Source: Niveispirillum lacus
Lineage (GTDB): Bacteria; Pseudomonadota; Alphaproteobacteria; Azospirillales; Azospirillaceae
Length of the DNA stretch: 64,000 nucleotides
Direction of reading: 5' to 3'
Assembly: GCF_002251795.1 (NCBI RefSeq)
Contig: NZ_NOXU01000022.1
Location: 62,001 to 126,000, forward strand
Shown: one piece after another, positions 941 to 2,685 of the stretch
How the letters are laid out: every line of letters starts with the position of its first letter
How positions within the stretch are numbered: position 1 is the stretch's first letter
Position numbers and translations under genes: made by a program
The notes under the pieces: model-generated
What the model saw: the letters and a program-made list of their open reading frames with translations, nothing else
Databases searched by the model: none
Told to the model about the DNA's origin: nothing

Positions 941-966
941 ATTTCCGCACAGGATCGCCGCTTGCA

Positions 967-985
967 ATTGCGAGTGATTCGCAAT
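967..985. promoter_or_regulatory. Fur-like 19-bp operator overlapping a promoter
   Basis: A 19-bp element has perfect 7-bp inverted arms, ATTGCGA (967-973) and TCGCAAT (979-985), around a GTGAT centre. This is the size and general form of a Fur box (known family); the right half TGATTCGCAAT resembles the common Fur half TGATTCTCATT. It sits between a possible -35 TTGCAA (962-967) and -10 TAGGTT (985-990) spaced 17 bp, so bound repressor would block the promoter of the gene at 1027. The Fur assignment is inference. Confidence 0.5.
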
Positions 986-1026
986 AGGTTTGAGACATTG
1001 ATGGTCAAGCAAGTCTGGAGGCGGCG

Positions 1027-1599
1027 ATGAATGATATGGCGCTGTGGTGGCCCGATCTGGCGGCCGGAACAGGTGTTAGAGACAGCCGAACGGGAGGCAT
1101 CGACCATGCGGAACGGGTGCGATATCTGACCGATCTTCAGCAAGGGGGAACGGTCTTTACCCTGACGCGCGGGGAACAGCTTCTGCTCTGGTCAGCGCGG
1201 CGCTGGCGCCATGGAAGGTTCCGCTGGGACCAGGTGGAGATGGAATTCCGCCGCATGCTGCCGGGCGGTTGGCAGGATGCCCTGATCGCCTGGGAAGAGG
1301 CCCTGGAACTACTGCATCAATATCCGACCGGTCGGCCCGATATTGGAAATGGCTGCCGGTCGGCCCTGTCCACCGACGAACGTGCCCTGCTGACGCTGGT
1401 CGCGGTACTGCAACGCGGGCCCCGTGCCCGCGTGTCGGCCGCGTGGCTGTTGTCCCATCTGATTGCATCCGCCCGGCAGCGAGACCTGGCAGCCGCCTTG
1501 TTGGGCCTGGCAGCGACCCTGTCGCTGGCGGGAACGGAACTGCCCCTGCGGGCTTGTCCCGTTCCCGTCATTGATCATCTGAAAGCCGTGTCCGGATGA
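1027..1599 (+). CDS. hypothetical protein, possibly iron-regulated
   Basis: 190 residues that I do not recognise. The protein is probably cytoplasmic: no signal peptide or membrane segment, rich in Leu, Ala, Arg and Trp. The middle looks helical (about residues 60-100, with an EEALELLHQYP stretch), as does the C-terminal half (about 115-170). The start is supported by GGAGG five bases before the ATG. A Fur-like palindrome lies over the promoter, so a role in iron or haem metabolism is possible, but nothing in the protein itself shows this. It converges on gpt with a 9-bp gap. Confidence 0.75.
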   Translation: MNDMALWWPDLAAGTGVRDSRTGGIDHAERVRYLTDLQQGGTVFTLTRGEQLLLWSARRWRHGRFRWDQVEMEFRRMLPGGWQDALIAWEEALELLHQYPTGRPDIGNGCRSALSTDERALLTLVAVLQRGPRARVSAAWLLSHLIASARQRDLAAALLGLAATLSLAGTELPLRACPVPVIDHLKAVSG

Positions 1600-2275: not shown

Positions 2276-2352
2276 GCGCCCGTAGCTCAGCTGGATAGAG
2301 CACCAGACTACGAATCTGGGGGTCAGAGGTTCGAATCCTTTCGGGCGCGCCA
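2276..2352 (+). tRNA. tRNA-Arg (ACG), copy 1 of 4
   Basis: 77-nt cloverleaf: acceptor GCGCCCG/CGGGCGC, discriminator G and encoded CCA. The anticodon loop CTACGAA gives anticodon ACG, whose wobble A is normally converted to inosine to read CGU, CGC and CGA. T-loop TTCGAAT is intact. Its 5' flank differs from those of the other three copies. Confidence 0.97.
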
Positions 2353-2386
2353 TTCCGAACCATCCAGTCCGGTCGATCATGGCGAT

Positions 2387-2463
2387 GCGCCCGTAGCTCA
2401 GCTGGATAGAGCACCAGACTACGAATCTGGGGGTCAGAGGTTCGAATCCTTTCGGGCGCGCCA
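2387..2463 (+). tRNA. tRNA-Arg (ACG), copy 2 of 4
   Basis: Identical in sequence to copy 1, including encoded CCA. It starts 111 bp after copy 1, separated by a 34-bp spacer beginning TTCCGAACCATCC. Confidence 0.97.
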
Positions 2464-2497
2464 TTCCGAACCATCCAGTCCGGTCGATCATGGCGAT

Positions 2498-2574
2498 GCG
2501 CCCGTAGCTCAGCTGGATAGAGCACCAGACTACGAATCTGGGGGTCAGAGGTTCGAATCCTTTCGGGCGCGCCA
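2498..2574 (+). tRNA. tRNA-Arg (ACG), copy 3 of 4
   Basis: Identical to copies 1, 2 and 4, and preceded by the same 34-bp spacer as copies 2 and 4. All four probably form one transcript. Confidence 0.97.
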
Positions 2575-2608
2575 TTCCGAACCATCCAGTCCGGTCGATC
2601 ATGGCGAT

Positions 2609-2685
2609 GCGCCCGTAGCTCAGCTGGATAGAGCACCAGACTACGAATCTGGGGGTCAGAGGTTCGAATCCTTTCGGGCGCGCCA
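2609..2685 (+). tRNA. tRNA-Arg (ACG), copy 4 of 4
   Basis: Identical to the other three copies. After the CCA the sequence changes to TTTTCTCCC instead of the spacer, so the array ends here. Confidence 0.97.

Follow-up and report, generated by a model that had tools for sequence, protein, structure and literature searches.

A putative Fur box and an unnamed protein family are conserved together across much of the Alphaproteobacteria

A 190-codon gene of Niveispirillum lacus, found in a 64,000-nucleotide stretch of DNA (hereafter the window), belongs to a protein family that is accompanied by a putative Fur box, and comparison of its homologues indicates that the two have stayed together in much of the class Alphaproteobacteria. 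Very probably the gene has a part in the response to iron shortage that has so far been overlooked. Its regulation would be of an ordinary kind, that of another Fur target, and the protein is undescribed in the libraries and the open-licence literature that were searched. Unnamed Fur targets are common. Here the pairing of box and gene extends over a large part of the class and, in several lineages, relatives of the gene lie in bacterioferritin and haem operons, which together mark the family as a component probably still lacking from the picture of iron homeostasis. That the presumed iron control has been retained so widely adds to its interest, and the family offers a defined deletion target in culturable Alphaproteobacteria.

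The window gene and its upstream palindrome

The ORF at positions 1027-1599 (+ strand) is a real gene, since it is kept in same-genus genomes, with a homologue in 9 of the 10 others searched, and since its differences from the closest relative are biased towards the third codon position (25, 9 and 60 differences at positions 1, 2 and 3 over 133 codons). The predicted protein gave no match to Pfam or NCBIfam at E-values up to 10; it is the unrecognised 190-residue protein reported by the initial annotation; the strong ribosome site noted there is also present, as GGAGG at positions 1017-1021 (+), 5 nt ahead of the ATG. With a top 19-residue hydropathy of 1.63, the protein (pI 8.8) is probably soluble. 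On the upstream side, the 3' part of leuC (47-886, +) lies outside the unit and is parted from the box by a terminator-like hairpin (911-937, +). Downstream, a convergent xanthine phosphoribosyltransferase gene (1609-2091, - strand) has its stop 9 nt beyond that of the 190-codon gene, which indicates that 1027-1599 forms a single-gene unit. Further along, four tandem tRNA-Arg genes with the anticodon ACG (window positions 2276-2685, starts at 2276, 2387, 2498 and 2609, 111-bp period) are crossed on both strands by long ORFs that are presumably spurious.

The palindrome, ATTGCGAGTGATTCGCAAT, occupies positions 967-985 (+) and ends 41 nt ahead of the ATG at 1027. Its perfect 7-bp arms (ATTGCGA and TCGCAAT) are separated by 5 bp (GTGAT) in a 7-5-7 arrangement, exactly the 19-bp element that had been annotated. 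No other zero-mismatch copy exists in the 4.97-Mb genome, where one-mismatch copies occur at four places. Within the window the pattern was found 3 times when up to three mismatches were allowed, compared with 3.0 expected; this chance-level count makes the letters alone a weak proof and renders conservation decisive, so that counting inside the window was abandoned as evidence and conservation was used instead. The initial annotation had also placed the box over a plausible promoter, which is the weakest element of its description. A sigma-70 consensus scan found no promoter-like site at the box. A promoter is nevertheless suggested by a -35-like TTGCAA (962-967, +) and a poor -10-like TAGGTT (985-990, +) located 17 nt after it, the box filling the spacer between them, and by the enrichment of TTG at the -35-like offset (29 of 82 family boxes versus 11 of 82 at the mirror position).

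Nine places of the genome carrying the palindrome with one or two mismatches were inspected, and the neighbours of six were scanned with Pfam. Iron-type genes were recognised at four of these six near-copies: two TonB-receptor genes (L040, L043) and one ABC solute-binding gene (L044), each with the site at its 5' end, and an ORF for a 205-aa membrane protein that begins 46 nt after the site and is followed by DUF2271 (L041). The same Pfam scan found no recognised iron gene alongside the one-mismatch sites L039 and L042. TonB-receptor promoters were also considered as an independent training set and were rejected, only 3 of the 30 loci checked (of 62 matches in the genome) having a site of at least 13 of 19 letters; homologues from the window's taxonomic family therefore served for training, and members outside it for testing.

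Three FUR-domain proteins are encoded in the genome, homologues of Fur, Irr and Zur; for L097 the best NCBIfam matches were Fur models, with scores below their curated cut-offs. A palindromic site at a putative promoter, kept in orthologues (see below) and present in a genome that encodes a Fur homologue, corresponds to a Fur box, and similar boxes at iron genes agree with this assignment, which bears out the Fur-like box of the initial annotation. It is thus very likely that iron-loaded Fur would repress the gene via the palindrome and that expression would be induced in iron shortage, and we infer that the gene is iron-responsive. The Irr and Zur homologues are encoded as well and could in principle read the palindrome in place of Fur. 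This appears very improbable, because the family motif has the layout of a Fur box and relatives carry near-classical forms such as GATAATGATTCTCACTATC when set against the classical consensus, whereas the Irr element, TTTAGAA-N-TTCTAAA, is unlike the box.

Conservation of the box and the hemP lineage

In the taxonomic family of the window (17 genomes, own included), 20 of 20 places had a site that agrees with the box at 11 or more of 16 letters and lies no more than 260 nt ahead of the matched stretch, including relatives of about 25% identity. These places yielded 14 distinct sites, which alone served to train a 19-bp matrix; with a threshold of 10 bits, this matrix was applied to a class-wide draw of 95 listed places. 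The first readings took in 40 regions and 30 loci, and later ones covered 20 further places plus G391 and G365, the latter two through L249 and L253; own-family places (L067-L069, L141, L161, L169, L304, L317) were excluded from the counts. The upstream interval extended from -250 to +60 of the chosen start for the first 69 places and covered the 310 nt before the matched stretch for the later ones, as well as for the phylum-wide draw described below.

In the first set outside the own family, the box was found upstream of the gene at 63 of 69 places, downstream at 3 of 69 and inside the gene at 0 of 69. The weaker-scoring places gave 17 of 21, hence 80 of 90 for the class draw as a whole. Among control windows, which came from 40 regions of the same genomes at arbitrary chosen coordinates rather than random draws, the box rate was 0.005 per 310 bp, and only 2 of the 40 AT-richest windows reached the threshold (Fisher test against 80 of 90, 4e-21). 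Six of the ten misses are the second of two members encoded on the same strand at one locus, where the first member has a box and the second lacks its own (L149, L157, L167, L308, L315, L318); the remaining four are L079 (7.6 bits), L148, L159 and L306. The initial annotation had called for conservation of box and gene together and had taken absence of the palindrome from orthologues as evidence against its proposal. With 20 of 20 and 80 of 90 places carrying the box, the proposal is supported, although the phylum-wide draw gave a lower proportion.

That draw comprised 58 places, with G099, G076 and G000 already in the class set; its count includes L249 and 20 regions, and L297 gave no hit at the local threshold. 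The box was present at 12 of 35 and 12 of 21 places (24 of 56). Eight of the places without it belong to one genus (L246-L249) and fifteen to a single taxonomic family, f23; L250, L255, L261, L265, L270, L292 and L293 are among the others that lack it. Neither a Fur box nor another recognised iron box was found at L246-L249, L250, L255, L265, L270, L292 or L293. An Irr-type element was considered for the loci of this draw; only at L261 did the match (12 of 14 letters) rise above the best control window (11), and it is not claimed, as the locus is AT-rich. Three genomes without the Fur box (L246-L248) share a conserved stretch around TCTAGAA...CTCGATATCGCC ahead of the gene, possibly the site of another regulator.

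The f23 loci have hemP directly upstream of the gene (PF10636 in the two that were scanned). The ATG of the gene overlaps the hemP stop as ATGA in 7 of the 7 first loci and in 2 of 5 later ones (L284 and L289; not L296, L298 or L299), a total of 9 of 12. Ahead of hemP, the 7 first loci carry a different palindrome, CYGANTANNTCNNTCAG, which is preceded in six of them by a -35-like TTGAC. This pattern, written after the 7 loci had been viewed, did not occur in 352 kb of control strand. It is not matched by L284 or L289, which brings the tally to 7 of 9 loci with the ATGA overlap. By its position and layout, CYGANTANNTCNNTCAG resembles the Iron-Rhodo-box, which is bound by IscR ahead of hemP in Rhodobacter sphaeroides, at sites that overlap the -35 and -10 regions (PMC4618611). 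In R. sphaeroides, hemP-irpA-bfd-bfr and an oxidoreductase gene apparently form one transcript (PMC4618611), of which hemP, irpA and bfd respond to iron limitation by induction (PMC4176601). This order is matched in L277 of f23, where hemP is followed by the gene, imelysin, bfd, bfr and DHOR (di-haem oxidoreductase), from which we infer that f23 is Rhodobacteraceae-like. The apparent change of regulator in the hemP lineage further suggests that selection acts on the iron control of the protein.

Bacterioferritin, bfd and hemP neighbours and the proposed role

Most members stand alone, and 48 of 75 have a convergent gene as their downstream neighbour. A minority lie close to genes for bacterioferritin (bfr), Bfd or HemP, a link that the initial annotation did not foresee. 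In class-draw loci outside the own family, bfr was found within about 2 kb of the gene in 9 of 80 (9 of 62 in the first set and 0 of 18 in the later one) and bfd in 7 of 80, versus 0 of 40 each near the arbitrary control regions. Against the controls alone this adjacency is modest evidence (Fisher test, 0.028 for bfr and 0.094 for bfd). Against chance placement it is strong: random positions would give 0.25 BFD-domain matches over the 80 loci and, on the assumption of five per genome, about 0.4 bacterioferritins. The loci are partly dependent, L080 and L090 belonging to one genus, and 4 of the 7 bfd domains pass the Pfam cut-off, the three others scoring 23.5-25.1 compared with 26 bits. In L070, bfd starts 12 nt after the stop of the gene, and in L165 the order is bfd-bfr-gene. 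The phylum draw also placed bfr and bfd near L252, L254, L259, L284, L286 and L289; the bfd match is weak in L252, L284 and L289, that of L252 being confirmed by Pfam under the handle L277. Smaller ferritin-like proteins are encoded at L272 and L273. Neither bfr nor bfd was found in the 10-kb contexts of own-family members.

From the box and these neighbourhoods, a role of the product in iron or haem homeostasis is likely. Iron-loaded Fur would sit on the palindrome covering the promoter and keep the gene off, and when iron runs short this repression would be lifted and the gene turned on. The product, a small, probably soluble and mostly helical protein, would act in trans, presumably in the cytoplasm, by binding bacterioferritin, Bfd, HemP or their haem or iron cargo, and would thereby assist in making iron from stores or from haem usable. 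Because the recurrent partners, namely Bfr, Bfd, HemP and ferritin-like proteins, handle stored iron or haem, a helper in iron release or in the use of haem iron is the favoured type of activity. That the product is such an in-trans helper, making stored or haem iron available, is put forward tentatively; the explanation taken in full, that of a Fur-repressed low-iron family with an iron-release helper function, we regard as reasonably probable. Speaking against it are the lower phylum-draw count, the lineages with neither a Fur box nor another recognised iron box, the mostly solitary position of the gene, the own-family contexts free of bfr and bfd, the modest contrast with the controls, the near-copies L039 and L042, the low-confidence structure models and, in the window member, the missing terminal His and Cys pair. 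It is conceivable, though somewhat doubtful, that this undescribed class-wide family belongs to the core of the adaptation of Alphaproteobacteria to iron starvation, where it would join the Bfr-Bfd iron store and HemP haem handling as a third partner; its iron control would have been kept though the regulator changed (a Fur box in many lineages, an Iron-Rhodo-box-like site before hemP in one).

The main rival to an iron-release helper is an iron-sparing regulator comparable to FbpA, FbpB and FbpC, which would be produced in low iron and would lower the amount of iron-rich enzymes via RNA or as an adaptor. The gene, mostly a single-gene unit with its own Fur box that codes for a small protein without an enzyme match, would suit such a regulator, and an iron-sparing response has been proposed for Caulobacter (PMC3751524). 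We consider it unlikely, since the pI of the family is not basic (median 6.8, range 4.8-10.3) and since the neighbours that recur, bfd, bfr and hemP, suggest iron release or haem rather than sparing.

It could also be argued that the gene is regulated by Fur and that bfd, bfr and hemP merely have iron-controlled promoters in common with it, the product acting elsewhere in low-iron physiology. Shared control alone could indeed explain the 3 of 7 bfd cases that are divergent from the gene (L072, L080, L090), and most loci have no bfd, bfr or hemP neighbour. This is quite unlikely, because in one lineage hemP and the gene overlap as ATGA at 9 of 12 loci, and because the order is co-directional in L070, L144, L165 and L167. 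Moreover, TonB receptors are frequent Fur targets, yet no TonB-receptor family was found among the 25 commonest of the 146 families recorded for 98 neighbour ORFs (98 of the 142 nearest neighbours were scanned).

The protein family and its relation to known systems

The family was present in 17 of the 59 genomes searched, own included. A 20-row profile found it in 77 of 385 alphaproteobacterial genomes, and a 77-row profile in 49 of 398 genomes of the phylum (the class share of the 398 is not stated), 47 of the 49 being Alphaproteobacteria. One clear member in another class (L255 of G705, E 1.6e-21) lacks the box and was possibly acquired by horizontal transfer. In the alignment of 77 sequences, two residues are invariant, Arg58 and Glu118 (window numbering); Asp117 occurs in 72 and Gln129 in 70. 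A Cys stands directly ahead of an [LV]SxDE motif in 66 of 77 members, and 41 of 77 end with a His, mostly as -LH or -VH; 40 of these 41 also have the Cys in the motif before the conserved Asp-Glu. The Cys and the terminal His could be a ligand pair, or the His part of a C-terminal recognition tag. The window member has the Cys (Cys110) ahead of its motif; it lacks the terminal His and the Cys pair that many relatives show.

PDB profile searches with the family gave nothing under E 0.34, two structure models had pLDDT values of 44 and 55, too low to be trusted, and plasmid records gave no match for one distant relative. No earlier description of the family was found in the open-licence literature. 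The family has no adequate Pfam or NCBIfam model, its distant relationship being with DUF6628 (PF20333, function unknown), to which 3 of 77 members match weakly (best E 1.7e-4). The window protein has no match to it in Pfam at E up to 10 and does not reach the gathering score. A DUF6628 search of the class gave hits in 2 of 289 genomes, one over the cut-off; both (G046, G104) were also found by the family profiles, and the locus of the G046 hit, L200, has an upstream box of 20.3 bits.

With the Bfd/bacterioferritin system the family shares a Fur-type box and, in several lineages, gene adjacency, but its sequences contain neither the BFD [2Fe-2S] domain nor a ferritin domain. HemP/HmuP, haem-uptake regulators, are likewise small proteins, and hemP is an overlapping partner gene in one lineage; HemP nevertheless forms its own Pfam family (PF10636, 37 positions), to which the window protein has no match, and hemP is a separate upstream gene. 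FbpA, FbpB and FbpC of Bacillus subtilis, small Fur-regulated proteins mentioned in PMC3751524, are a possible analogue by description; they are of a small basic type, compared with a pI of 8.8 for the window protein and a family median of 6.8. Seven hypothetical genes are listed as Fur-repressed in the Caulobacter regulon (PMC3751524).

Besides the same-strand pairs mentioned above, two other arrangements of family members were observed. In L137, two family domains are contained in a single ORF of 368 aa, and in L071, L091 and L143 two members are divergent, with Fur-type boxes in their common intergenic region.
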